The notes beneath the pieces were generated by a model. It was not told the origin of the DNA. It searched no databases and saw only the letters and a list, made by a program, of their open reading frames with translations. Position numbers and translations under genes: made by a program. 64,000 nt of DNA from Achromobacter aloeverae (GTDB taxonomy: Bacteria; Pseudomonadota; Gammaproteobacteria; Burkholderiales; Burkholderiaceae_B), in assembly GCF_004121055.1 (NCBI RefSeq), contig NZ_PYAL01000008.1, forward strand, positions 62,001 to 126,000. Direction: 5' to 3'. This document shows, in pieces, positions 12,155 to 64,000 of this stretch (positions are counted from its first letter, which is position 1; the number at the start of each line of letters is the position of its first letter).

Positions 12155-12826
12155 ATGATCGGATTCGCCATCCACCCCCGCCAACGCGCCGTCAGCGCCG
12201 AGGCCGTGGCCCGTTTTCGCGACATTCCCGTCGCCAACGTCAGCGACTGCATGTCGCGCATGAGCGCCGGCGGCGCCCGCCTGCGGCCCATGCACGACGG
12301 CACGCCCATGGCCGGCCCGGCGCTGACCGTGCGCTGCCGCCCCGGCGACAACCTTTTGGTGCACAAGGCGCTGGACCTGGCCGCGCCCGGCGACGTCATC
12401 GTGGTCGATGCGGGGGGCGACCTGACCAACGCCATCATCGGCGAAATCATGGCTGCCTATGCGGCGACGCGCGGCGTGGCCGGCATCGTGATCAACGGCG
12501 CCATCCGCGACGCCGGCACGCTGCGCCAGGGTACGCTGCCGGTCTATGCCGCCGGCGTGACCCACCGGGGCCCCTACAAGGACGGTCCGGGCGTCATCAA
12601 TGGCACGATCGCGCTGGACGGCATGACGATCGAGCCGGGCGATCTCATCCTGGGCGATGACGACGGCCTGCTGTGCGTCCCCTACGCGCAGGTGGAGGCG
12701 CTGTACCAGGCCGCCAGCGCCAAGCACAAGGCGGAACTGGAGATGCTGGCGCAGATTGCCGCGGGCAAGCTGGATACGTCGTGGATCGATGCGCGCCTGG
12801 CGGCCCTGGGCTGCGAGACGAAATAG
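12155..12826 (+). CDS. RraA-like / HMG-CHA aldolase family protein
   Basis: 223 residues of the RraA/demethylmenaquinone-methyltransferase-like fold shared with class II 4-hydroxy-4-methyl-2-oxoglutarate and 4-carboxy-4-hydroxy-2-oxoadipate aldolases. GEIMAAYA and, further on, INGAIRD match the segments that carry the metal/pyruvate-binding Arg-Asp pair; GDLILGDDDG is another family block. It lies 55 bp after the Bug receptor with a strong AGGAG. A divalent-metal aldolase producing pyruvate or oxaloacetate is the likely role. True RraA (RNase E inhibitor) is less likely given this metabolic context. Confidence 0.87.
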   Translation: MIGFAIHPRQRAVSAEAVARFRDIPVANVSDCMSRMSAGGARLRPMHDGTPMAGPALTVRCRPGDNLLVHKALDLAAPGDVIVVDAGGDLTNAIIGEIMAAYAATRGVAGIVINGAIRDAGTLRQGTLPVYAAGVTHRGPYKDGPGVINGTIALDGMTIEPGDLILGDDDGLLCVPYAQVEALYQAASAKHKAELEMLAQIAAGKLDTSWIDARLAALGCETK

Positions 12827-12946
12827 GTTAGGCGGGGCACGACCCGCGCTCGCTGCGTAAAGGCCGCCGTACCCATGCTGCCCAGCAGGGGGCAGCCCAT
12901 GGCGCGAGTGCCTTGCCGGCGCCCGCGAGGGAAATCGCGCTGGCGA

Positions 12947-13609
12947 TCATCCCCTGGCCGGCGCCTTCCCCTTGCGCTGCCCGCGGAACAGCAGGTGGGT
13001 CGCCGACAGGTGAAAGCGCATGGCGGTCTCGGCATGCGCCGCATCCCCCGCCCGCAAGGCGGCGATGATGTCGCGATGATGCTCCACGCTGCGCAGCATG
13101 TCCTCGTGGCTGTAGAAGTAGAACGAGCCGATGATGATGGGCAGGTCCAGCAGGCTCTCCACCAGCGAGCGCACGCGCGCCGACTGCGCGGCCGCCAGCA
13201 AGGCATGATGGAAGCGGTTGTTGAGTTTCTGGACCCGGTCCACACGGTCGGCATCGTCCGACTCGGCGGCCGCCTTCATGCCGCGATTGATGGCTTCCAG
13301 CTCGTCGATCTCCGCCGGCGTGGCGCGCTGCGCCGCAACGCCGGCGGCATAGGGTTCCAGCAACAGCCGCAGCGCGAACGCCTCGTCGATATCGCGGTCC
13401 AGCCAGCCCAGCACCACCGTCCCGCGCCGCCCGTCACGCTTGACCAGGCCGTCGGCTTCCAGCCGCTCGATGGCCTGGCGCACCGGCGTGCGGCTGACGT
13501 CCAGTTCCTTCGCGATGCGTTCCTCGCGCAATTTCTCGCCGGGCAGGAAGGCGCCCGCCATCAGGCGTCGGCGTAACTCCCCATAAACCAGGTCGCGGGC
13601 GCTGGGCAT
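12947..13609 (-). CDS. GntR-family regulator (FadR/FCD subfamily)
   Basis: 220 residues. The winged helix is at about residues 5-70 (LREERIAKELDVSRTPVRQAIERL), followed by an all-helical FCD domain with the metal/ligand His residues in FHHALL and EHHRDII. I chose the ATG at 13609; the frame is open further up but that stretch is the antisense of the amidase gene. It is the last gene of the peptide transport operon, 37 bp after the amidase, so it probably controls that operon in response to a carboxylate product. Confidence 0.92.
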   Translation of the reverse strand: MPSARDLVYGELRRRLMAGAFLPGEKLREERIAKELDVSRTPVRQAIERLEADGLVKRDGRRGTVVLGWLDRDIDEAFALRLLLEPYAAGVAAQRATPAEIDELEAINRGMKAAAESDDADRVDRVQKLNNRFHHALLAAAQSARVRSLVESLLDLPIIIGSFYFYSHEDMLRSVEHHRDIIAALRAGDAAHAETAMRFHLSATHLLFRGQRKGKAPARG

Positions 13610-13646
13610 CGATGCTCGAATACGGAAGGACTTGTGGAGTTGCCGA

Positions 13647-15182
13647 CTATACCTGAAGGCCACCTGTCCGGACGCCGCCCGCCGCTCCGGAGGCCCCCGC
13701 ATCCTCCAGCACGGGCTCCAGGCGCGCGCCCACCGATTGTTCGAAGGCGTAGGCCAGCCCCAGCAGGCGCGCCTCGTCGTGGGGCGCGCCCATGAAGGAC
13801 AGGCCCACGGGCACGCCGGCGCGCGCCCGGCCCGCCGGCACGCTGATTTCCGGCAGGCCCGCCGCGCTGGCGACATACAGCGCGGCATAAGGATTGCCGG
13901 GGTGCTCCACATAGGAGGGATCGGGCTGGTCGTAACGCGGCGAAGCCGGACAGGAAAGCGTGGGGAACACCAGCGCCGTCACGTCCTCCTGCCGCATCCG
14001 CTGCATCAACGCGGCACGAAAGCCCGCCAGCGTGGCCTGCGCCCGCGCGCGCTCCACCGCCGTCTGCTGTCGCGCCGCCTCCAGCGCGCGCCGCATGCCG
14101 GCCAGCGTGCGCGGATTGACATCATGCGTGGGACAGGCCGCGGACCAGGCGGTGGCGGCATCGACCAGTTGCGCCATGGTAAGCGGTGCCGCACCCAGGC
14201 TCTTCTTCAGGTACTCATCCAGCTGCCCGGGCCATTCCGCGTCGGCGAGGGGCGCGAGCAGAATGGGATGCAGCGCCGTCGCCGGCGCGGGCACCCGCAG
14301 GTCCACCAGGACGGCGCCCAGGTCGCGCAGGCGGTCCAGGGACTGCCCGACGATGGCCTGGACCTCTTCGTCCTCGCCCGGGAAGTCCGCCACCACGCCG
14401 ATGCGCTGGCCCCGCAGGGCCCCCGCATCCAGCGCGTCAAGATATTCGCCGCGCTCGCCACCCGGCACCGCGCATGCCATCGAACGCAGCAACAGCGCCA
14501 CGTCGCGCACCCGGCGCGCCAGCGGCCCCACGGTGTCGAAGGACAAGGACAGCGGCAGAATGCCATCGACCGGAATCAGGCCCAGGGTGGGGCGCAGGCC
14601 AGCCAGCCCCGCCACGCAAGCCGGCGCCCGCACGGACCCGAAGGTATCGGTGCCCAGCGCCGCCGCCGCGAAGCCCGCGGCCACGGCCGCCCCGCTACCG
14701 CTACTGGAACCCGCCGCGTTGCGGGCGCGGTTGTAGGGATTCAACGTCAGGCCAGCCAGCGAGCCATAGCCGTAGCGCCCGTTGGAGCAGGCGAATTCCG
14801 ACATATTGGTCTTGCCCAGCACGATGGCGCCGGCCTGCCGCAAACGCCGCACGACGCTTGCATCGCGGGCGGGGCGATGTTCGCGCAACAGCGCGGAGCC
14901 CGCCGTGGTCGGCAGGCCGGCCAGGTCGATGTTGTCCTTCACGACAATGGGGACGCCATGCAGCGGCCCGCGCACCAGGCCGTTCGCCCGCTCCTGGTCC
15001 AGCTGGCGCGCCTGGGCGGCCGCATCGTCGCACAGCCAGGTCATGGCATTGATGGCGGCGCCCTTCTTGTCGTGGGCCGCGATACGCGCCAGGTAGGCCT
15101 CGACCAGTTGCAGGGAAGTGGTGGCGCCGCTTGCGAGGTCGGCGCCCAATTCCGAAATGTCCTGGCTCAAGGGATCGTACAC
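13647..15182 (-). CDS. Amidase-signature family hydrolase
   Basis: 511 residues starting at GTG (15182), supported by AGGAG 5 bases upstream; no ATG lies nearby. The Ser-cisSer-Lys triad is visible: Lys82 (PIVVKDN), Ser159 in NAAGSSSGSG, and the nucleophile Ser183 in GTDTFGSVRAPA. The usual TDTGGS glycine is Phe here, a substitution close to the nucleophile that may alter substrate choice. It is downstream of the peptide ABC transporter and upstream of the GntR regulator, which suggests hydrolysis of an imported amide or peptide derivative. Family members range from GatA to aryl-acylamidases, so the substrate is unknown. Confidence 0.9.
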   Translation of the reverse strand: MYDPLSQDISELGADLASGATTSLQLVEAYLARIAAHDKKGAAINAMTWLCDDAAAQARQLDQERANGLVRGPLHGVPIVVKDNIDLAGLPTTAGSALLREHRPARDASVVRRLRQAGAIVLGKTNMSEFACSNGRYGYGSLAGLTLNPYNRARNAAGSSSGSGAAVAAGFAAAALGTDTFGSVRAPACVAGLAGLRPTLGLIPVDGILPLSLSFDTVGPLARRVRDVALLLRSMACAVPGGERGEYLDALDAGALRGQRIGVVADFPGEDEEVQAIVGQSLDRLRDLGAVLVDLRVPAPATALHPILLAPLADAEWPGQLDEYLKKSLGAAPLTMAQLVDAATAWSAACPTHDVNPRTLAGMRRALEAARQQTAVERARAQATLAGFRAALMQRMRQEDVTALVFPTLSCPASPRYDQPDPSYVEHPGNPYAALYVASAAGLPEISVPAGRARAGVPVGLSFMGAPHDEARLLGLAYAFEQSVGARLEPVLEDAGASGAAGGVRTGGLQV

Positions 15183-15244
15183 GGTCTCTCCTGAAGGCTG
15201 ACGCGGCCGCCGGAAGGCGGCACGTTCGCCATCGTGCCGCAAGC

Positions 15245-16251
15245 CTAGCGGAAATGGCAAGCCACCCACTGGGTCGCCGCCGCCGCCGAGCCGTCCGCGC
15301 CGGCACCGTCCGGGCTGCGTGGCGACAGGACCGGCCGCTCCTTTTTGCAAATATCCTGGGCCAGCGGGCAGCGCGTGTGGAATCGGCAGCCGCTGGGTGG
15401 ATTGGCCGGACTGGGCGGATCGCCTCGCAGCAGGATGCGCTGGCTGTGCACATGCGGATTGGGCACGGGCACCGCCGACAACAGGATCTCCGTGTAAGGA
15501 TGGCGCGGCCGCGAGAACAGCGTCTGGCGGTCCGCCAGTTCGACCACCTGGCCCAGGTACATCACGGCCACGCGATGGCTGATGTGGCGCACCACGGCCA
15601 GGTCGTGAGCCACGAACAGGTACGCGATGCCGAACTCCCGTTGCAGGTCCGTCAGCAGATTGATGACCTGCGCCTGCACCGAGACGTCCAGGGCCGACAC
15701 CGGTTCGTCGCACACGATCAGCTTGGGCCGCAGCGCCAGGGCGCGCGCGATGCCCAGCCGCTGGCGCTGCCCGCCCGAGAACTCGTGCGGAAATTTCTTC
15801 ATGGCCTCCGGCCGCAGGCCCACCTTGGAGAACAGCCAGGCCACCCGCTCGGCCCGCGCCGCCGCGCCATGCCCCTGCGCGCTGCTGAAATTGCGCATGG
15901 GCTCTTCCACGATGGCGCCGGCCGTCATGCGCGGATTGAGCGAAGCGTAGGGGTCCTGGAAGATGATCTGCATATCGCGCCGGCGCTCGCGCATCGCCGC
16001 CGCATCCAGCCTGGCGATATCCTCGCCGTCGAGCTTGACCGAGCCGGACGTCGGTTCGATCAGGCGCAGGATGGATTTGCCGGTGGTGGTCTTGCCACAG
16101 CCGGACTCGCCCACCAGGGCCAGCGTTTCACCACGTTCGACGTCGAAGGACACGCCATCGACCGCCTGTATGGTCGGGCGCTTGCGGCCCAGCCAGCTTG
16201 CGGCCCCGGGATAGTGCTTGACCAGGTCGCGGACCTGCAGCAAAGGAACAC

Positions 16252-54720: not shown

Positions 54721-56889
54721 TCATGCGTCTGACCGGGCGATGCCGGTTGGCGTGGAATGCCTTGCATTTTCCATAAGGGCCGGCACGTCAAGGATCAGCG
54801 CGACTTCGCCGCTGCCCAGGATGCTGGACCCGCTGATGCCCTGCACGCCCGCGAAGATACGCGCCAGCGGTTTGATGACGGCCTGTGTTTCGCCCAACAA
54901 GGTGTCGACGACCAGGCCACAACGCTGGGCGCCATGGCGGACCACCACGATGTTCTCGCGCGCGCCCGCTTCGCCGGACAGCGCGAACATCTCGCGCAGG
55001 CGAATGAAGGGCAGCACCTGGCCGCGCAGGTCCGTGTAGCTGCCGCCCGCGACCGCGTTATAGGCGACGCACTCGTCCACCATGTCCAGCGGCAGGATGA
55101 AACGCGAGCGGCCGACGCCGACCTGGAAGCCGTCGATGATGGCCAGCGTCAGCGGCAGGCGCACCGTAACCAGCGTGCCGGCGCCCGGGCGGCTGGTGAC
55201 ATCGACGCTGCCGCGCAGCGCTTCGATATTGCGCTTGACCACGTCCATGCCCACCCCGCGCCCCGACAGGTCGGTCACCGCGGCGGCCGTCGAAAAGCCC
55301 GGCTCGAAAATCAGCTTGAACACGTCGCTGTCGGACAGGACCTGCCCAGGCTCGACAATGCCGCGTTCCACCGCCTTCGCGAAGATGCGTTCGCGGTCCA
55401 GGCCGCCGCCATCGTCGCGCACCTCGATCACGATATGGCCCGACTCATGGCGGGCGTCCAGCGTGATGGTGCCGTGCGCGGGCTTGCCCCGCGCCACCCG
55501 CACGTCGGCCGGCTCGATGCCATGGTCTATGGCATTACGCACCAGGTGGGTCAGCGGATCGCCGATTTTCTCCACCACCGTCTTGTCCAGCTCGGTCTCC
55601 TCGCCGCTGATCGCCAACTCGATGTGCTTGCCCAGCGTACGCGCCACGTCGTGCACCACGCGGCGGAAACGGTTGAAGGTGGCCCCGATGCGGACCATGC
55701 GCAATTGCAGCGTGCTGTCGTGCACGGCCTCGACCAGGTCGGCCACCTGCGAAGCGCACTCCTGCGCCTCGGCGTTGCCGCTGCGCGCGGCGGCCAGGCT
55801 GGCGCCGGCGGACGCAGTGATCAGTTCGCCCACGAGGTTGATCAAATGATCGAGCTTGTCCGCGTCGACGCGCACCGACCGGCTTTCGCCCACCTTCCTT
55901 TCCTTGGCCTGCCGCTGCCGGTGCAACGCCGCGGCCACCACCGGCGGCGCGACCGCCAGCTGCTGCACCAGGATCTGGCCCAGGGGCTCCGGATCGTCGT
56001 CCTCGCCCTGCAGCCGCAAGGCCTCTTCCAATTCACGCGGCGTCAACGTCCCGCAGCGCACCAGCATCTCGCCCAGCATGGCCGGTTCCTCGCCCAGACC
56101 GGCCAGCATGTCCATATAGTCGGAGATGCGGCTGCGGGGAGGAATGATGCGTATGTTGCAATCGTCGATGACGAATTCGAAAGTGCCTTCGATCGTGGCC
56201 TTGTCGGCGGGACTGTCCAGGCCGATTTCGAAGCCGAGATAGCAGGCTTCCGGATCCATGTCGTCCAGGGCGGGCAGGCGTCCCGCCTGGCACGCCACGC
56301 CGGTGATGCGGCCCAGCCGCTGCAAGTAGCGGATGAAGGACAATGGGTCCATGCCATTGCGCAGCACGCCCTCGTGGAAACGCAGGGAGATATGCCAATG
56401 ATCGGCATAGTCCCCCGGCTCGTCCGCCTGACCTGCCTCGCCCGCCTGGCCATCCGCCCGCATCACCGCCACGGCGGCCGCGTCACCCTGGCCTCGCAGG
56501 TAGCCGGCCAGCCGCTCGCGCAGCATGCCCCCTTCCGTCCGCGAATCGGGATCATCCCCGTCCTGCGCCGCGCCTCCATCGACGCCGTCGACAAGGCGGC
56601 CGATATAGTCCTTGCAACCCAGCATCAGCGCCACCATCTCGGCGTCGAGGCCGATGACGCCCTCGCGCACCCGGTCCAGCACGCTTTCGACGTCGTGCGT
56701 GAACTCCACGATGCGGTCGATGCCGAACAGGCCCGCCGATCCCTTGATGGTATGGGCGGCACGGAAGATCGCATTGATGGCCGGCGCGCGGTCGATCTCG
56801 TCCTGCACCGTCAATAACGCCTCTTCCATTTCCGCCAGCAGTTCGCGGCTTTCGGTAATGAAGGTTTGCAGCGCCTGGTCCAGATCCAT
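54721..56889 (-). CDS. cheA: Chemotaxis histidine kinase CheA with MshEN-like insert
   Basis: 722 residues from the ATG at 56889 (GGAG upstream; another ATG 4 codons earlier). The Hpt domain has His46 (RAAHTIKGSAG). A P2-like region at about 162-252 (HWHISLRFHEGVLRNGMDP) is followed by two 24-residue MshEN-like motifs at about 271-294 and 302-325, then P3 dimerisation, the ATPase (HLVRNAIDHGIEPADVR, DDGGGLD, GRGVGMDVV) and a CheW-like P5. It phosphorylates CheY, CheB and probably the EAL regulator. Confidence 0.94.
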   Translation of the reverse strand: MDLDQALQTFITESRELLAEMEEALLTVQDEIDRAPAINAIFRAAHTIKGSAGLFGIDRIVEFTHDVESVLDRVREGVIGLDAEMVALMLGCKDYIGRLVDGVDGGAAQDGDDPDSRTEGGMLRERLAGYLRGQGDAAAVAVMRADGQAGEAGQADEPGDYADHWHISLRFHEGVLRNGMDPLSFIRYLQRLGRITGVACQAGRLPALDDMDPEACYLGFEIGLDSPADKATIEGTFEFVIDDCNIRIIPPRSRISDYMDMLAGLGEEPAMLGEMLVRCGTLTPRELEEALRLQGEDDDPEPLGQILVQQLAVAPPVVAAALHRQRQAKERKVGESRSVRVDADKLDHLINLVGELITASAGASLAAARSGNAEAQECASQVADLVEAVHDSTLQLRMVRIGATFNRFRRVVHDVARTLGKHIELAISGEETELDKTVVEKIGDPLTHLVRNAIDHGIEPADVRVARGKPAHGTITLDARHESGHIVIEVRDDGGGLDRERIFAKAVERGIVEPGQVLSDSDVFKLIFEPGFSTAAAVTDLSGRGVGMDVVKRNIEALRGSVDVTSRPGAGTLVTVRLPLTLAIIDGFQVGVGRSRFILPLDMVDECVAYNAVAGGSYTDLRGQVLPFIRLREMFALSGEAGARENIVVVRHGAQRCGLVVDTLLGETQAVIKPLARIFAGVQGISGSSILGSGEVALILDVPALMENARHSTPTGIARSDA

Positions 56890-56913
56890 GCTTCGCTCCA
56901 TGGGCCGCGCCGC

Positions 56914-57237
56914 TCAGGCGGCGGGCCCGATTTCCATGTCATGTCCGGCGGCCATGACAGGCGCCAGCGTGCTGTCCAGGCCCAGCAGGGCAATGACTTC
57001 GCGCAAGGGCTCGGCCAATCCGGCCAGGCGCAGTTCGCGTTGCTGCGCCTGGGCCCGCGCATGCGCCGCCAGCAACAGCTGTACGCCGGCGGTGTCGAGC
57101 TCGGTCACCCCGCTCAGGTCGACGCACAAGGGCTCGGGTTCCGCATCGGCAGCCAGGGCCTGCGACAGGCGCTGGCGCACCTCCTGCGCGGTATAGATCG
57201 TCAGCTCGCCCTCCAGCCGCAGCGTTCGCGCGTCCAT
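56914..57237 (-). CDS. STAS-domain protein
   Basis: 107 residues: a single STAS domain with DLSGVTELDTAGVQLLL, where Thr/Ser near LDTAG is the usual phosphorylation site of anti-sigma antagonists. Here it lies between cheY and cheA with a one-base overlap with cheY (TAATG). Similar small STAS proteins occur in alternative chemosensory operons and may bind or be phosphorylated by a kinase; the partner is not known. No switch kinase is encoded nearby. Confidence 0.88.
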   Translation of the reverse strand: MDARTLRLEGELTIYTAQEVRQRLSQALAADAEPEPLCVDLSGVTELDTAGVQLLLAAHARAQAQQRELRLAGLAEPLREVIALLGLDSTLAPVMAAGHDMEIGPAA

Positions 57238-57605
57238 TACGGCAGCACCAGTTTTTCCACCGCGCCCAGCAACTGGGCCGGCTGGAAGGGCTTGACCATC
57301 CAGGCCTTGGCGCCGGCCAGCTGGCCTTCGCGCTTCTTCGCTTCCTGGCTTTCCGTGGTAAGCATGATGACCGGCGTAAATCGATAGGCCGGCAGCTGCT
57401 TCACGCTCTTGAGGAACGTAATGCCGTCCATGTTCGGCATATTCACGTCGCTGATGATCAGGTGGATCTTCTGGCCCGTGAGCTTGGCCAATGCGTCCTG
57501 GCCATCGCGGCCTTCGATGACGTCATAACCGGCGCCGCGCAAGGCGATGCCCACCACCTGGCGCACCGAGGCCGAATCATCGACGATAAGTATGGTCTTG
57601 GGCAT
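57237..57605 (-). CDS. cheY: CheY-like response regulator
   Basis: 122 residues, a stand-alone receiver. Acidic residues VDD (9-10) and phospho-acceptor Asp53 (IISDVNMPNMDG), Thr in MLTTES and Lys in WMVKPF are all present. It carries the CheA signal to a motor or other target. It follows the upstream receptor-like gene by 9 bp. Confidence 0.94.
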   Translation of the reverse strand: MPKTILIVDDSASVRQVVGIALRGAGYDVIEGRDGQDALAKLTGQKIHLIISDVNMPNMDGITFLKSVKQLPAYRFTPVIMLTTESQEAKKREGQLAGAKAWMVKPFQPAQLLGAVEKLVLP

Positions 57606-57614
57606 GCTGCTTCC

Positions 57615-58754
57615 TCAGAAGAAAGTGATGTCGTCGCCGGCGGTCGCCGGCTTGGTGGGCGCGCCGCGATGCAACTCACGTTCGCCGGCCATGGCATAGG
57701 TCTTCTCCAGCTCCTGCAACAGGCCGCCAGCGGCAAGCGGCAGCAGTTCGCCGGCCTCCTCGCACTCGCGCCGATAATCCTGGATCACGGTCGGCAGGCG
57801 CTCGATATTGGCCACGACGTGCGCCATGACCTGGCTGACCCGGTCCTGGAATTGCAGCTGGACCAGCGCCTCGTTGACTTCGGTCTGGATACCCTGGCTC
57901 TCTTCGCGCAGGCGATCGGTGGTTTCCGTAAGACCGTCGGCAAAGGCCTGGAAGCCTTCGAGCACTTGCTGGATGGCGGTTTCCGAAGCCGCGACCGCCT
58001 CCTGCTCGCGGCGGGTGGTCTGCTCGGCGACGGTGCAGGTCTGCAGGATGGCCGCGCCTATCAGCTCGATTTTTTCCGCGATGCGGGCGCCGGTTTCCCC
58101 GGACTGCTTGGAAAGCGCCCGGACTTCCTGCGCGACCGTGGCGAAGCCGCGGCCCAGGCTGCCCGCATGGGCTGCTTCGATGGTGGCGTTGATGGCGAGC
58201 AGGTTGGTCTGCTGGGTCACCATGGCGATGGCCTGCACCATGTCCTGGAGCTCGTCGACGAAGCCTTGCAGGCCCTGGACCTTGACCAGCATGTCGGCCT
58301 TGGTCTGCATGCCGTCGCGCAGTAGTTGCAGCACGCCATCCAGCTGCTGCCGGCTGCGCGCGGAGACGGCGGCGGCCGAACGATCGCCGCTGCCCCCATT
58401 GTCCATGGAGAGCCTGAGCGTCTGGTCCAGGCGCACGGATATCTCGCCAAAGCGCATGCTCAGCGCCGTGATGGCCTCTTCCATCTGGCTACGGGACGAT
58501 TCGATCTGGCGCGACCACACCGGCGCCAGGTCCGCGCTGAAATTTTCCAGGTTGGCCATGTGACGCTGCACCGCCCCGTCTTCCGTGGACTCGGCACGTC
58601 CACGCCAGCCCGCGGCGATGCCCAGCGCAACCAGCACGGCGCCCGCGGCGCAGCCCCAGGTGGACCAGGCGGCGAAAGCCGCGCTGGCCACGCCTCCCGC
58701 GAGCCCCAGCAGCGTCGCACTCCAACGCGCCCACAGATGTCGAACCTCAGTCAT
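57615..58754 (-). CDS. Methyl-accepting chemotaxis protein, short N-terminus, no HAMP
   Basis: 379 residues. Two closely spaced hydrophobic helices near residues 10-50 form a hairpin with almost no periplasmic domain; no HAMP is visible. The signalling hairpin tip reads [36 protein letters not shown], more divergent than the other receptor. The C-terminus ends DDITFF. It probably senses a cytoplasmic or membrane signal. First gene of the operon; the start at 58754 is chosen over an ATG 22 codons earlier. Confidence 0.88.
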
Positions 58755-59095
58755 GTACCGCCCTTGAACCTTTGCCGACACCATCCGCCGCGATAACGGA
58801 TCGACGGCTTGCAAACCCACACCCCAAATCCATCATGGCGAAGCCGCCCACCGGCCTGAGGAGGGGGGTGCGCCCGGGCCGGGCCGGACATCGAAAATAT
58901 CCGGTCAACCTGGACAACGGCAGGCGGGCGGCCCGGCAATACGGTTTGGTCGGCCAAAAATCGGCATGACATCGGCCAAGTCTGTTATCTTTACTAATTG
59001 AAGATACAAATACTGACAACCTGCCCGCCGGTAATTGCCGCCGGCATGGCCGTAATGCTGTCGCCAGTCGCTGGCGGTAGCGCCTTCGGAGCCCC
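58755..59095. other. Divergent region, chemotaxis operon / AraC gene
   Basis: 341 bp. It holds an AT-rich patch at about 58980-59015 with an inverted repeat TATCTT-N9-AAGATA (58986-59006). No flagellar sigma-28 promoter was recognised. No gene is seen. Confidence 0.45.
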
Positions 59096-60151
59096 ATGTT
59101 CCACCCCTTACGCCGCGTCGCAAGACTTTCCGCCCTTCCCGATACGGCGGCCGCTGACGTCCCGCCGGTGGCCTTGCGCCAACTGATGACCGAAGCCTCG
59201 CGCGGCGGTCAGGACCCGGCGCTGCTTTGCGAGGGCGCGGGCTTCCGGCCGGACGACCTGCTGACGCCCGACTACCGGGTCTCGCGCGCGCAATACGCCC
59301 ATGTCATCCGGCGCGCGCTGCGCGAACTGGGCCGACCGGCCCTGGGGCTGGAGCTGGGCGCCGGCGTCAACCCCGTGTCCCTGGGCCTGGTCGCCCTGGG
59401 CTTCATGAGTTGCCGCCATTCTCGCGAGCTGCTGGACTTCGCCATCGAGCACCAGCATGAGTGCGGTGGCCTGCTGTCCGTGCACGGCGAGGAGCTGGCG
59501 CAGACCTGGAGCCTGGAAGGCCGTTCCCATTTCGGCGACCGTCGTATCGACGGCTTCGTGGTCGATCACTGCTTTGCCGCCCTTGTGCAGATCTGCCGCC
59601 AGGTGGTGAGCGATCTCTTCAATCCGCGCATGGTGGAACTGGCCAGCGAACGGCCGCCTTACGGCGCCCTCTACGAGAGCGTCTTCCGCTGCCCGGTGCG
59701 CTTTGGCCAACCGCTGAACCGCTTGCACTTCCCGCGCGAGCCCCATGCCATACGCAGCGCCGACGCGGTAACGCTGGCGCTGGTGCGACGCGACCTGGCC
59801 GGCCGGGCCTCCCGGCCGGCGGCGCCTTCGGCACTGCATGCCGTGGTGGCGCAGGCCATCCGGCGCGACCTGGCCTACCCCACGCCCCTGCGCGACATCG
59901 CGGCCAGCCTGCACACCAGTGAACGTACCTTGCGGCGCCGGTTGGAGGCACAGGGGCTGACCTATGCGGGACTGCTGGAAGAAGAAAGACGGGCCCGGGC
60001 GCTCACCCTGCTGACGCAATCCTCGCGCAACGTGCAGCAAATCGCCGCGGCATGCGGCTACACCAATGCGCGCACCCTGCAGCGTGCCGTACAGCGCTGG
60101 ACCGGCCATTCGCCCACCGGCCTGCGGCGCATCGGCCGGACCCAGGCCTAG
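59096..60151 (+). CDS. AraC-family regulator (arabinose-binding-like N-terminal domain)
   Basis: 351 residues. The N-terminal Arabinose_bd-type domain (about 25-220) is that of OruR/GbdR-like and ArgR-like virulence regulators; the C-terminal double helix-turn-helix has LRDIAASLHTSERTLRRRLEAQG and IAAACGYTNARTLQRAVQRWTGHSP. It is convergent with the flavin oxidase (25 bp between stops) and divergent from the chemotaxis operon, so its targets cannot be fixed. Confidence 0.88.
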   Translation: MFHPLRRVARLSALPDTAAADVPPVALRQLMTEASRGGQDPALLCEGAGFRPDDLLTPDYRVSRAQYAHVIRRALRELGRPALGLELGAGVNPVSLGLVALGFMSCRHSRELLDFAIEHQHECGGLLSVHGEELAQTWSLEGRSHFGDRRIDGFVVDHCFAALVQICRQVVSDLFNPRMVELASERPPYGALYESVFRCPVRFGQPLNRLHFPREPHAIRSADAVTLALVRRDLAGRASRPAAPSALHAVVAQAIRRDLAYPTPLRDIAASLHTSERTLRRRLEAQGLTYAGLLEEERRARALTLLTQSSRNVQQIAAACGYTNARTLQRAVQRWTGHSPTGLRRIGRTQA

Positions 60152-60176: not shown

Positions 60177-61820
60177 CTAGGCTTCGCCCAGGATGCGTTG
60201 CGCCGCCCGCACGCCCCACCACGAGGCTTCCTCGAAAACCGAATACCCCGACAGGTCGGCGTGGGCGAACAGCACCCGGCCATCGACATCGCGCAAGGCC
60301 GCCAGGCCCGGATTGTCCAGGTAGCCCGGCGCCGGTATCGCCATGGCATGCCCTCGCACCGTGATTTCGAGCTGGCGGGCGTAACGCCAGAAATCTTCAC
60401 CGTAGGCCGCCAGCAAATCGATGGCCGCCTGGTCGCGCAGGGCTTGCGCATCGGCACGGGCCAGCCAGCGGCGGGCCTGTTCGGGCGTCTCCGTGCTGAC
60501 CGCCTGGTAGGCGGTGAACACCGTGCGCGGCGGCGGCGCCACGCGTATCAACTGATGGGTGGACACCACATAACCCAGGCCCGGTCCTTCGTAGACCACG
60601 TTATCCCACGCCAGCGGCGCGCCCGCCAACTCGCGGGGAAAACCTTCCAGGGTGAAATTCGACACCAGCCAGGGCGCATGCGGCGACTGGTGCACGGCAT
60701 GGTCGTAGCCGTAGCCGGCCAGATCGCGCACGATATGGGCGGCCTCGAACAAGGGCATCGCGCAGACCACGCGGCCGGCGCGCAGCGAGCGCGTCACCGG
60801 CGCCGCCGGAGCGCCCGGCGATCCCTGGAAACCACCGGCCACCAGCACGGCCACGTCCGGGCCCTGTTCCTGCACGCGCATCGCCGTGCCGGACTGCAGC
60901 CAATCCTCATGGCCCAGCCGCCGCGTGATGGACGCCCGCAGATACGCCACCAGGCGCGCCAGCCCATTGGGCCAGGTCAGCACGGCGCCATCCGGCGCAT
61001 TGCTCGCATGGCCGTCGCGGGAGCAGAAGTAATGCAGTCCGGCCCACGCCGACACCCGGTCATGCGGCGCGCCATAATCGTCGCGGCAGCAGTAATCCAG
61101 GTACCAATGCAGCGCGGGCGACGTATAGCCCTGGTCCAGCAGCCATTGCCTGAAGGTCAGGCGGTCCAGCGCGCGCCATTGCGCATCCCGCGAAGACAAT
61201 GCGATGGGAATGCAGAACAGCTTGCGGCCATCCTGGCCCACCGCGTCGCGCAGGCCGTCGACATGGCGGAAGAAGGCATCGTGCTGGGCTTGATCCCGCG
61301 GCGTGGCGCCCGGCGGCACCAGCGCATCCTCCCACCGCCCGTCGCGCAGCAGTCTTTCGTCCAGGCCATGCACGACGACGGCCTCGTCCATATAAGGGCG
61401 TTCGGTTTGCGCGCCATCCAGGATGACGCCGAATTCGGCCAGCATTTCGCGCACGTGCGTGCTGGCTCGCGATGGCAGCGGCAAGTAGTGCGCGCCGCGC
61501 GGATAGGCGAGGTCTCCCGCGCCGCCGCCCGACGCATTGCCGCCGACCTCCGGTCCCGCCAGCACGACGAAATCCCGATGGCCGCGGCGCGCCAGGTGCC
61601 AGGCGCAGGACAGCCCCGCCACGCCGGCGCCCAGCACGGCCACACCCGCGCGCTGCTCGCCGCTGGGCGCCGGTAGCGCGGCACCGTCGCGCAGCCAGTG
61701 CCCTTCGCGCATGCCGGGATAGGCGAGCACCGGGGTGGTCTCGCGTATCGCCAGTCGCGCCGCGCTGCCCAGGGCCGCGGCGCCCACCGCCGCACCGAGC
61801 ACGAAGGTACGGCGCCGCAT
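60177..61820 (-). CDS. Tat-exported FAD-dependent amine-oxidase-like protein
   Basis: 547 residues. The N-terminus MRRRTFVLGAAVGAAALG is a twin-arginine signal. The FAD Rossmann motif follows at about 60-90 (AVLGAGVAGLSCAWHL, Gly64/66/69), and the C-terminal FAD contact is near DVDGRVLFAHADLSG. Fold and motifs fit the flavin amine oxidase / protoporphyrinogen oxidase group. It overlaps the aminopropyltransferase-like gene by one base, which makes polyamine-related oxidation in the periplasm plausible but unproven. Confidence 0.85.
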   Translation of the reverse strand: MRRRTFVLGAAVGAAALGSAARLAIRETTPVLAYPGMREGHWLRDGAALPAPSGEQRAGVAVLGAGVAGLSCAWHLARRGHRDFVVLAGPEVGGNASGGGAGDLAYPRGAHYLPLPSRASTHVREMLAEFGVILDGAQTERPYMDEAVVVHGLDERLLRDGRWEDALVPPGATPRDQAQHDAFFRHVDGLRDAVGQDGRKLFCIPIALSSRDAQWRALDRLTFRQWLLDQGYTSPALHWYLDYCCRDDYGAPHDRVSAWAGLHYFCSRDGHASNAPDGAVLTWPNGLARLVAYLRASITRRLGHEDWLQSGTAMRVQEQGPDVAVLVAGGFQGSPGAPAAPVTRSLRAGRVVCAMPLFEAAHIVRDLAGYGYDHAVHQSPHAPWLVSNFTLEGFPRELAGAPLAWDNVVYEGPGLGYVVSTHQLIRVAPPPRTVFTAYQAVSTETPEQARRWLARADAQALRDQAAIDLLAAYGEDFWRYARQLEITVRGHAMAIPAPGYLDNPGLAALRDVDGRVLFAHADLSGYSVFEEASWWGVRAAQRILGEA

Positions 61821-63331
61821 CAGCGTATGACCTTGCGCCAGTCTTCGTCGAAGTAGCGCACCAGCGATTGCTCGTTGAGCCGGTTCGGCGGCATCTCCAG
61901 CGCGGGCATGTCGACCGGGAAGTGGAACAGCTCCTTGAGCGTGGGGCCATCCAGGTAGCGCGTGGGCACGGACACGCGCGCCGGCGGCGTATAGTCGGCG
62001 CGCTTGCCGGCAAGGATGTAGCCCCAATCGCCGAAAGACGGCACGTAGCAGTGGTAAGGCCAGGTATGCAGCCCGGCTTCCTTCAAGGTGGCGTTGATGC
62101 TCCAGAACGAATGCGGCGCGAAGTACGGCGAAGTGGACTGCACGACCATATAGCCCTGCTCCGACAGATGGCGCGCCATCAGCCGGAAAATGGGCGTGGA
62201 ATACAGCCGGCCCAAGCCGAAATTGGTGGGATCCGGAAAATCCACGACGATGAAGTCATAGACATGGGCATTCGATTCCAGCCACGCCCCGGCGTCGGCA
62301 TTGATCACCGTCACGCGCGGGTTCTTCAGCGACCCCTGGTTCAACTCGACCAGGGGCGCCGACGTCGAGAAAAGCCGGGTCATCGCCGGATCCAGGTCGA
62401 CCAGCGTGATGTGCTCGATATTCTTGTGCTTGAGGATTTCGCGCACCGCCAGGCCGTCTCCGCCGCCCAGCACCAGGACATTGCGCGCCCAGGGCACGGC
62501 ATCCAGGCCCGGATGGACCAGGGCTTCGTGATAGCGATGCTCGTCGCGCGAGGAGAATTGCAGGTTCCCGTTGATATGCAGGCGCAGGTCGTCGCGCCAC
62601 CGGGTCACCACCAGCCGCTGATAGGGCGTGGTTTCCGCATGGATGACCTGGTCGCCGTACAAGCCCCGTTCGGCCCAGCCCGTCATCTGCCCCGACAGGC
62701 CGAAGCCCACCGCCAGCAGGCCCATCACCAGGGTGGCGCGCCAGACCTTGTCGGCCGCCCTGGACAAATGCGCGCGGAACAGCCACGCGGTCCAGAGCGA
62801 CACGCTGGCGTTGAGGATGCCGAACAGGAAACCCGTACGCAGCAGGCCCAGGTAAGGCGCCAGCAGCAGGGGGAACACCAGCGACACCGCCAGCGCGCCG
62901 AGATAATCGAAGGCCAGCACCTTGCTGACCAGCTCGCGGAACTCGGTGCGCTGTTGATTGAAGATGCGCATCACCAGCGGGATTTCCATGCCCACCAGCA
63001 AGCCGATCAGGAATACGCAGACATAGAGCGCCGCGCGAAACGGCGCCGCGACCCAGGCGAAAACGAGGAACAGCAGCGCGGCCGACAGGCCGCCGACCAA
63101 GCCCACCAGCAGCTCGACATCGATGAAGCGGTCGAGCACCTTGTCGTCGGGCACATAGCGCGAAAACCATGAGCCGACGCCCATGGCGAAGAGGTAACAA
63201 CCGATTACCGTGGAAAACTGCAAAATCGAATCGCCGAGCAGGTAGCTCGCCAGGGCGCTACCGATCAGCTCATAGCCTAATCCACATGATGCAACAATCA
63301 ATACGGAAAGTATCAGCGCGCGATCCCGCAT
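61820..63331 (-). CDS. Membrane-bound spermidine-synthase-like aminopropyltransferase
   Basis: 503 residues. About seven hydrophobic helices (residues 5-215) precede a polyamine-synthase domain: Tyr-His-Glu in DEHRYHEALVHP, the nucleotide-binding VLGGGDGLAVRE (289-293) and DFPDPTN (Asp364, Asp367), the position of the catalytic Asp. It would move an aminopropyl group from decarboxylated SAM to an amine, though family members may use other donors. If seven helices and an inside N-terminus are right, the catalytic domain faces the periplasm. The start at 63331 is chosen because the frame above is shadow of the DUF350 gene. Confidence 0.87.
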   Translation of the reverse strand: MRDRALILSVLIVASCGLGYELIGSALASYLLGDSILQFSTVIGCYLFAMGVGSWFSRYVPDDKVLDRFIDVELLVGLVGGLSAALLFLVFAWVAAPFRAALYVCVFLIGLLVGMEIPLVMRIFNQQRTEFRELVSKVLAFDYLGALAVSLVFPLLLAPYLGLLRTGFLFGILNASVSLWTAWLFRAHLSRAADKVWRATLVMGLLAVGFGLSGQMTGWAERGLYGDQVIHAETTPYQRLVVTRWRDDLRLHINGNLQFSSRDEHRYHEALVHPGLDAVPWARNVLVLGGGDGLAVREILKHKNIEHITLVDLDPAMTRLFSTSAPLVELNQGSLKNPRVTVINADAGAWLESNAHVYDFIVVDFPDPTNFGLGRLYSTPIFRLMARHLSEQGYMVVQSTSPYFAPHSFWSINATLKEAGLHTWPYHCYVPSFGDWGYILAGKRADYTPPARVSVPTRYLDGPTLKELFHFPVDMPALEMPPNRLNEQSLVRYFDEDWRKVIR

Positions 63332-63418
63332 GGGAGCTTCCGGAAGGCGAAAAATGCTGGCAGTATATCGAACCGCCCGCACGAACCGTCCCTGTTTACG
63401 AACCCTAGAAGGCACTCC

Positions 63419-63811
63419 ATGCTCACGACGCCGGCCTACGCCTATCTGATCTACCTGGTGTCCGCCCTGGTGATGCTGGCCCTGTTCGCGGTCATCTATT
63501 CGCACGCCACCACCTTCGACGAAATGGCGCTGATCCGTGCAGGCAACGGCGCCGCCGCCTTGTCCTATTGCGGTTCGCTGGTGGGCTTCAGCCTCACCCT
63601 CTATTCCAGCATTGCCACCCATGCCACCTACGGCATGTTCCTGGCGTGGGCGGCCGCTGCGATGATTACCCAGGTGCTGGCCTACGCCATCGCCGCGCGG
63701 GTCATCCGCGGGATGAACCAGGCCATCCAGGAAAACAACGTCGCGATGGGCGGCCTGATGGGCGGAATTTCATTGTCCGTGGGCATCATCAACGCCGCCT
63801 GCCTTACCTGA
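63419..63811 (+). CDS. DUF350 (YjfL-like) membrane protein
   Basis: 130 residues with four hydrophobic helices in two similar halves: a helix pair at about 8-65 and another at about 70-128. The conserved region around AALSYCGSLVGFSLTLYSSIA is typical of DUF350. Function unknown; in E. coli the family member YjfL sits with a glutathionylspermidine-synthase-like ATP-grasp protein. Divergent from the aminopropyltransferase gene with 87 bp between starts. Confidence 0.88.
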   Translation: MLTTPAYAYLIYLVSALVMLALFAVIYSHATTFDEMALIRAGNGAAALSYCGSLVGFSLTLYSSIATHATYGMFLAWAAAAMITQVLAYAIAARVIRGMNQAIQENNVAMGGLMGGISLSVGIINAACLT

Positions 63812-63856
63812 CCAGTACGCTGACCCCAACGCAGACCCTACGATTCGGGAGCCGCC

Positions 63857-64000
63857 ATGAGCCTCGGTTCATTCATACGCAAGCAGTTCATCGACATCCT
63901 CCAGTGGAACGAGGACGCGGACGGCGTCCTCGCCTGGCGCTATCCCATGCAGGATTTCGAAATCCAGTACGGCGGCAGCCTCACCGTGCGCGAGTCGCAG
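63857..64000 (+). CDS. SPFH-domain (YdjI/virion-core-like) protein, N-terminal fragment
   Basis: 48 codons before the right edge. The sequence MSLGSFIRKQFIDILQWNED and WRYPMQDFEIQYGGSLTVRESQ matches the start of bacterial SPFH-domain proteins of the YdjI type, which often follow DUF350 genes. GGGAG lies 6 bases upstream of the ATG. SPFH proteins oligomerise at membranes; the role here is unknown. Confidence 0.75.
   Translation, partial: MSLGSFIRKQFIDILQWNEDADGVLAWRYPMQDFEIQYGGSLTVRESQ

Follow-up and report, generated by a model that had tools for sequence, protein, structure and literature searches.

Does a spermidine-synthase-like domain fused to a membrane protein act on the cytoplasmic side of the inner membrane, or on the periplasmic side, where a neighbouring oxidase is predicted to be exported? 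This question is raised by a divergent six-gene module at the right end of a 64,000-nucleotide stretch of the Achromobacter aloeverae genome (the window; own genome G000, contig G000:C12). The module spans G000:C12:122177-129053 and its right part extends past the window end. We tentatively favour the reading that it is a membrane aminopropylation module acting on the periplasmic side. The parts of this reading that are grounded in sequence are the gene content, gene order and conservation, the catalytic motifs, a changed acceptor site, the predicted sidedness and the pairing of oxidase with transferase; from these we infer the acceptor, the export of the donor, the oxidase reaction and the scaffold role of the remaining proteins.

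The two leftward genes lie on the minus strand. One encodes the transferase, a 503-aa protein made of a seven-helix membrane part and a C-terminal spermidine-synthase-like domain (61820-63331; NF002956), as judged from the open reading frame, profile matches and an AlphaFold2 (AF2) model. The other encodes a 547-aa FAD-dependent oxidase with a twin-arginine (Tat) signal (60177-61820); the transferase stop codon and the oxidase ATG share one base. Across 87 bp between ATGs (63332-63418), the plus strand carries genes for a 130-aa DUF350 membrane protein (63419-63811; PF03994, E 1.5e-29 over positions 2-133) and a 353-aa SPFH protein, of which only the start (63857-64000) lies in the window and which ends at G000:C12:126918. 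The SPFH protein matches Band_7_1 at E 7e-76; its C-terminus is SHOCT-like (25.3 bits, just below the 27-bit Pfam cut-off), and no hydrophobic segment was found in it. Past the window follow, also on the plus strand, a 488-aa DUF4178 protein with two hydrophobic segments near its C-terminus (G000:C12:126928-128394, L004:5929-7395; PF13785 with two stretches) and a 166-aa SpeD (G000:C12:128553-129053, L004:7554-8054; PF02675, E 1.5e-34). The open reading frames, the Pfam and NCBIfam matches and the coordinates bear out the four gene identities and the 87-bp divergent control region given in a preliminary description of this DNA, and DUF4178 and SpeD genes stand to the right of 64000, where that description had proposed to look for them. 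PspA and CesT/Tir families are not among the genes between or beside the six, which have an AraC gene on the left and a cupin gene on the right.

The arrangement is widely conserved. A close set of 80 loci, close kin and the best of 323 relatives in a named-genome scan, comes from Bordetella, Achromobacter, Burkholderia, Paraburkholderia, Cupriavidus, Pseudoxanthomonas, Lysobacter, Zoogloea, Andreprevotia and other hosts. With the window locus this makes 81, and in 69 of them the six genes have identical order and strands, a recurrence that rules out chance or artefact as the origin of the gene order. The remaining 12 loci all lack SpeD; nine stop at a contig end, and L037, L041 and L079 are without it in a full flank. 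Enzyme and oxidase genes are co-directional in 80 of the 81 loci, with the one-base overlap in 59 and a gap of 2857 bp in L080, while the enzyme and DUF350 genes are divergent in 80. Alignments A1/A2 took in 51 of the 81 enzymes and 53 of the 80 oxidases, and counts out of 51 or 53 below refer to these.

A less biased picture comes from a broad sample of 199 genomes spread over the phylum, in which the profile search scored up to seven candidates per genome, with misses possible. There the membrane enzyme exceeds the NF002956 cut-off in 23 genomes, our own included. DUF350 is present in all of the other 22, and in 19 it lies within 10 kb of the enzyme on one contig; SpeD is present in 18, within 5 kb of the enzyme in nine; and DUF4178 is present in 15, of which 14 exceed the family cut-off. 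Co-occurrence confined to the genus, the outcome that the preliminary description had held to tell against a common system, thus did not appear in either set. The DUF350 unit itself seems modular: seven of the 22 genomes have a partial match of 60-66 positions (G190, G082, G178, G171, G189, G024 and G179, each about half the profile), 13 have at least two matches, G074 has one full match, and in G164 the match runs across two stop codons. The window carries a single full unit.

Is the fused domain an aminopropyltransferase? The protein matches Spermine_synth in Pfam at E 5e-35 and NF002956 (PRK03612) at 689 bits against a cut-off of 472, over positions 19-521 of 522. Its listed structural matches (VIA-align) all fall on the soluble domain, where residues 224-496 align with 1uir at Z 33.8 (267 residues aligned, root-mean-square deviation 2.1), indicating an aminopropyltransferase fold. 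The GGGDG and DxPDP motifs, which had been read as intact, are indeed so (GGGDG at residues 289-293, DFPDP at 364-368), and aminopropyltransferase activity is predicted from them. A canonical spermidine synthase, SpeE, was rejected as the identity: the TIGR00417 score is 123.3 bits against a cut-off of 249.55, and the acceptor column differs.

The donor of such a reaction is decarboxylated S-adenosylmethionine (dcAdoMet; AdoMet, S-adenosylmethionine), the cytoplasmic aminopropyl donor for polyamines. The SpeD of the module scores 122.1 bits on TIGR03330 against a cut-off of 75.65, which places it among class 1b AdoMet decarboxylases, and its sequence holds LSESHITIHTWPE and FMCG, which we take to contain the processing serine and the catalytic His and Cys. 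It is the sole PF02675 match in its own genome. PF01564 has three matches there; the two outside the module score 41 and 25 bits, and by eye the frames of both lack DxxDP at the catalytic loop. With one SpeD and no other DxxDP-bearing PF01564 protein, the module contains the sole clear candidates in this genome for making and for using dcAdoMet. A second, larger spermidine-synthase-like protein is encoded on contig G000:C5 (L087); it has 812 aa and many hydrophobic stretches and is without DxxDP at the catalytic loop.

Across the broad sample, SpeD follows the membrane enzyme. Of the 23 genomes that carry the enzyme, 19 have SpeD, as compared with 32 of 176 without the enzyme (Fisher 1.3e-9; this value, like the hypergeometric and Mann-Whitney values below, ignores relatedness). 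We counted as soluble SpeE a match of at least 100 bits that starts after profile position 200, among the matches listed. On this definition, 30 of the 32 SpeD genomes without the membrane enzyme have a soluble SpeE, but only three of the 19 with it do, none being listed for the other 16. This is what is expected if the membrane enzyme uses dcAdoMet. Two enzyme genomes without class 1 SpeD, G184 and G151, have a class 2 AdoMet decarboxylase (PF01536), though not near the enzyme; this family was found in two of six genomes tested and in none of 14 controls. According to the available text of PMC10407285, some SpeD homologues have turned into ornithine or arginine decarboxylases. We set this identity aside as improbable for the SpeD of the module, since it retains the residues that were sought and since SpeD tracks the membrane enzyme across genomes.

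The second enzyme of the module is the oxidase. Its N-terminus reads RRRTF, a GxGxxG motif (GAGVAG) stands at residues 64-69, and the twin arginine is found in all 80 close and all six distant oxidases, from which Tat export is predicted. A lipobox cysteine follows the hydrophobic stretch in 37 of the 80 close and four of the six distant oxidases and is absent from that of the window. The protein matches NAD_binding_8 and DAO, and reaches 17.6 bits on Amino_oxidase (PF01593) against a Pfam cut-off of 19.8; this profile is matched at E 0.001 by 46 of 53 family members. The predicted structure (pLDDT 90.5) has the flavin amine oxidase fold, with putrescine oxidase as the best match (Z 27.1, 420 residues aligned, root-mean-square deviation 3.7) and non-amine flavoenzymes close behind. 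At E 1e-20 or better the oxidase family occurs in seven of the 199 genomes, all of which have the membrane enzyme, at most 5.1 kb away (hypergeometric 1.1e-7). We conclude from this distribution that the oxidase is probably a dedicated partner of the membrane transferase.

On which side of the membrane does the transferase domain lie? Helix counting had suggested seven helices with the N-terminus inside, and hence a transferase domain on the same side as the oxidase. The AF2 model (pLDDT 85.2) has seven long helices, at residues 2-32, 37-59, 62-93, 98-126, 131-161, 163-184 and 192-211, and a short helix at 213-225 between helix 7 and the catalytic domain. We examined a wide set of 32 sequences, namely that of the window, 23 from broad-sample genomes (stop-to-stop frames with starts not set) and eight from close loci, L111 being counted here. 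Segment 7 has a mean KD19 value (the best hydropathy over 19 residues) of 1.92 and never falls below 1.41 in the 32, the weakest segment on average being segment 2, at 1.54. Lysine and arginine are more abundant in loops 2-3, 4-5 and 6-7 than in loops 1-2, 3-4 and 5-6 in all 32 wide and all 51 close sequences, a pattern that puts the N-terminus on the inner and the catalytic domain on the outer side. Loop 6-7 is also more positive than the stretch after helix 7, again in 32 of 32 and 51 of 51.

Cysteine content points the same way. Loss of cysteine is common in domains that face the oxidising periplasm. Among 31 members of the membrane family (33-86% identical; L111 of G001, a DFPVP outlier below the cut-off, was left out of cysteine and motif counts), the catalytic domain has no cysteine in 22 and one in nine. 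For comparison we took 20 soluble SpeE matches, one per genome, from among the 34 genomes of the same phylum with such a match; all 20 have between one and six (Mann-Whitney 2.7e-9 versus the members). The scarcity is not a property of the whole protein: the membrane parts of the members average 2.2 cysteines and are richer than their own catalytic domain in 28 of 31. In genomes with both enzymes, the membrane-linked and soluble domains have 0 and 2 cysteines, respectively, in G082, and 0 and 1 in G171. The scarcity may instead reflect a founder effect. Taken together, the AF2 model, the charges and the cysteine counts favour the seven-helix topology with the N-terminus inside, and the transferase domain is predicted to face the periplasm, on the same side as the Tat oxidase.

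Several observations weigh against this topology or against the module reading as a whole. At a simple KD19 cut-off of 1.4, the 51 close sequences divide into 28 with seven segments, 22 with six and one with five, and the two weakest helices of the window protein are 6 and 7, each at 1.45. The even number of helices that would leave the transferase domain in the cytoplasm, and that the preliminary description had set against its own topology, appears unlikely, yet six segments are what a sizeable group of close sequences gives. The AF2 model contains no membrane and is not oriented. The cysteine contrast is narrow for part of the soluble set, as three of the 20 soluble enzymes have a single cysteine, including that of G171 (L118). 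The donor dcAdoMet is made in the cytoplasm, and it is by inference that it is taken to be exported. Class 1 SpeD is missing from four of the 23 enzyme genomes, two of which are without a class 2 enzyme as well. As for the oxidase, 16 of the 23 enzyme genomes have no match to it at E 1e-20; being found in only seven, it is not essential to the core reaction. Finally, monoamine and polyamine oxidases carry an active-site lysine, and no lysine is conserved in at least 90% of the 53 oxidases, the best column reaching 81%, so that the amine-oxidase label stays putative.

The best-surviving alternative takes up the first of these points. The transferase domain would be cytoplasmic, with helix 7 lying in the membrane surface, and would aminopropylate the inner leaflet or an inner membrane protein, while the oxidase acts elsewhere outside. 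We consider this unlikely but deserving of weight, as it keeps the enzyme where its donor is, fits the weakness of helix 7 in the window protein and the six-segment sequences, and would put the transferase with two partners that are probably inside, SpeD being soluble and the SPFH protein having no hydrophobic segment. Against it stand the hydrophobicity of helix 7 throughout the wide set, the charge difference across that helix in every sequence of both sets, and the fact that the catalytic domain, unlike the membrane part to which it is fused, is poor in cysteine.

If the domain is periplasmic, what might it modify? Both Asp residues of D[FL]PDP are retained in all 31 members, as they are in all 20 soluble enzymes, and GGGDG is kept in most members. 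The acceptor side is different. The loop DxxDPxGP[GA] is found in 16 of 20 soluble enzymes and in none of the 31 members, and all 20 soluble enzymes have Tyr (in PTY or VYP) at a position that is Phe in every one of the 31 members, within PSFG[DENQ]WG, one to two residues shorter than the soluble counterpart. The tyrosine presumably belongs to the acceptor site. The altered acceptor region fits an acceptor other than putrescine. Fusions of this kind reportedly do not replace SpeE in E. coli, and spermidine is said to be absent from their hosts.

These features bear on a second alternative, which we regard as distinctly unlikely, that the system makes surface polyamines: spermidine or a similar polyamine would be produced by the enzyme, either at the inner membrane or past it, and would then be trimmed by the Tat oxidase. 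The retained Asp pair and GGGDG are as such an enzyme would have them, but the acceptor region is unlike that of soluble spermidine synthases in every member, and the reported absence of spermidine and of speE complementation also speaks against it. A precedent exists in the proposal, in the available text of PMC11107197, that the Tat-exported SpdH of P. aeruginosa acts on the product of SpeE2. Of the entries listed, SpdH gives the oxidase model its longest alignment (461 residues, Z 25.6), although SpdH is also longer; by Z, SpdH (25.1-25.8) is nearly tied with many other amine oxidases, and it stands close to putrescine oxidase, MAO, protoporphyrinogen oxidase and phytoene desaturase. The oxidase profile has no sequence match in the PDB at 1e-5.

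Least probable is that operon inheritance alone keeps an unrelated oxidase gene next to the others and that the system consists of the SpeE-7TM, SpeD, DUF350 and SPFH or PspA genes, for although most enzyme genomes do without the oxidase and a 1253-aa sensor kinase stands between oxidase and enzyme in G190, the oxidase never occurs without the enzyme in the sample (seven of seven), is found with it in more than one gene order, and in G024 and G189 sits between enzyme and SpeD in a one-strand order unlike that of the window.

Under the periplasmic reading that we tentatively favour, SpeD would make dcAdoMet in the cytoplasm, and the membrane half of the seven-helix protein would bring it across. 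The periplasmic spermidine-synthase-like domain would then transfer the aminopropyl group of this donor to an acceptor outside the cytoplasm. The acceptor would be something other than putrescine; an amine or a phosphate on a membrane lipid, or on some other envelope molecule, is the likeliest candidate. On the same side, the Tat-exported and often lipid-anchored oxidase may oxidise or remove the added group, and DUF350, the SPFH-SHOCT protein and DUF4178 may together act from the inner side as a scaffold or sensor at the membrane. A response to membrane stress, which the preliminary description had inferred as an alternative to lipid or polyamine modification, is a candidate role. An outward domain would demand that cells carry dcAdoMet across the membrane. 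The fullest form of the proposal is possible, though we hold it doubtful: the membrane half exports dcAdoMet or presents it to the outward transferase, and the whole is a writer-and-oxidase system that adds aminopropyl groups to the envelope and then removes or converts them. It would be, as far as we know, the first case of dcAdoMet being used beyond the cytoplasm. If the domain does face outward, there would be a new class of envelope modification in Burkholderiales, Xanthomonadales and relatives. The role of the membrane-fused spermidine synthase would become directly testable, for instance through the 57 Da that one aminopropyl group adds, and the oxidase would offer a second handle on the product; the outward topology and the dedicated oxidase are the testable points of the module.

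How might the two arms be controlled? Comparison of the intergenic regions revealed a conserved element, ATATACTG (63361-63368, minus strand), which resembles a -10 box and in the window is directed toward the transferase gene, whose ATG is 29 bp away. Of 80 intergenic regions, 60 contain the element (56 of 76 when identical regions are counted once), against 0.13 expected from first-order shuffles, a contrast that is overstated, and an expected number that is too low a bar, because the motif was picked from these same related regions. In 28 of the 80 it is found in both directions. A consensus scan of 63250-63500 gave no sigma-70 promoter. A terminator-like stem at 63377-63359 on the minus strand (0.1 expected) overlaps the element.

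To the left of the module, an AraC-type regulator (Arabinose_bd and HTH_18; 59096-60151, plus strand) is convergent with the oxidase gene and may regulate the module or be unrelated to it. Further left, on the minus strand, a chemotaxis-like cluster (54721-58820) encodes a 726-aa CheA-like kinase, a short STAS-like protein, a CheY-like regulator and a 401-aa MCP-like protein, named by reading their translations. Translations likewise suggest, in L004, a PP2C-type phosphatase fused to a Ser/Thr kinase (13658-15394) adjoining a FocA/NirC-like membrane protein (12542-13651).

We now compare the module with known systems. In acyltransferase-3 proteins with an outer SGNH domain, such as OatA, the membrane domain passes a cytoplasmic activated donor to an outward transferase. 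The proposed mechanism would share that logic only; folds and chemistry differ. Closer in content, an MFS-spermidine synthase fusion that occurs with a class 1b AdoMet decarboxylase and DUF350 is said to act on a non-putrescine substrate; we take it to be apparently the same enzyme as the window transferase. In P. aeruginosa, SpeE2 and SpeD2 (PMC11107197) resemble the module in that an extra aminopropyltransferase stands beside a class 1b SpeD and a Tat flavoenzyme of similar fold is present. Unlike the window enzyme, SpeE2 is described as a thermospermine synthase, and the available text of that paper mentions no membrane domain for it.

DUF350 had also been linked, through the yjf locus of enterobacteria, to polyamine ATP-grasp genes. 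That link holds in part: elsewhere the enzyme occurs with DUF350, DUF2170 and PspA (L095, L102 and L108), with DUF350, PspA, CesT_Tir and SpeD (L104) and with DUF350 and DUF2617 (L105), but a GspS-like ATP-grasp gene (GSP_synth, PF03738) is found in none of the 23 enzyme genomes, our own included, under a search that covered these genomes and matched its positive controls in E. coli and Caulobacter. The ATP-grasp and the membrane enzyme may therefore be alternatives in the same kind of cluster. In the variant cluster of L108, a site-2 protease-like protein (Peptidase_M50B, E 1.4e-39; 12875-13546) directly adjoins SpeD.

The proteins of the module had been described as rarely studied together, which is only partly so, as most of the gene associations are already in print in PMC11237479, whose available text ties such DUF350 and synthase clusters to PspA-type membrane maintenance. 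A divergent six-gene variant with a dedicated Tat oxidase and a predicted periplasmic dcAdoMet enzyme was not found in the literature searched on these families. As described in the available text of PMC11237479, a variant of group 3 combines a Band-7-SHOCT protein with an AdoMet decarboxylase and a polyamine oxidase; it is like the module in having Band-7 and SHOCT, DUF350, SpeD and an oxidase. Unlike the window module, group 3 is centred on a GspS-like ATP-grasp gene, and the band-7 protein of the variant has two transmembrane segments. Group 2 of the same text is an operon of a 7TM spermine/spermidine synthase with CesT/Tir-PspA, DUF350, DUF4178 and a lipoprotein. The module is like it in uniting a membrane-fused synthase, DUF350 and DUF4178 in one cluster, and L104 adds PspA, CesT_Tir and SpeD to the likeness. 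It differs from group 2, where DUF350 is an 8TM protein, in its single DUF350 unit, its SPFH-SHOCT protein replacing PspA and CesT/Tir, its Tat oxidase and its divergent gene order.

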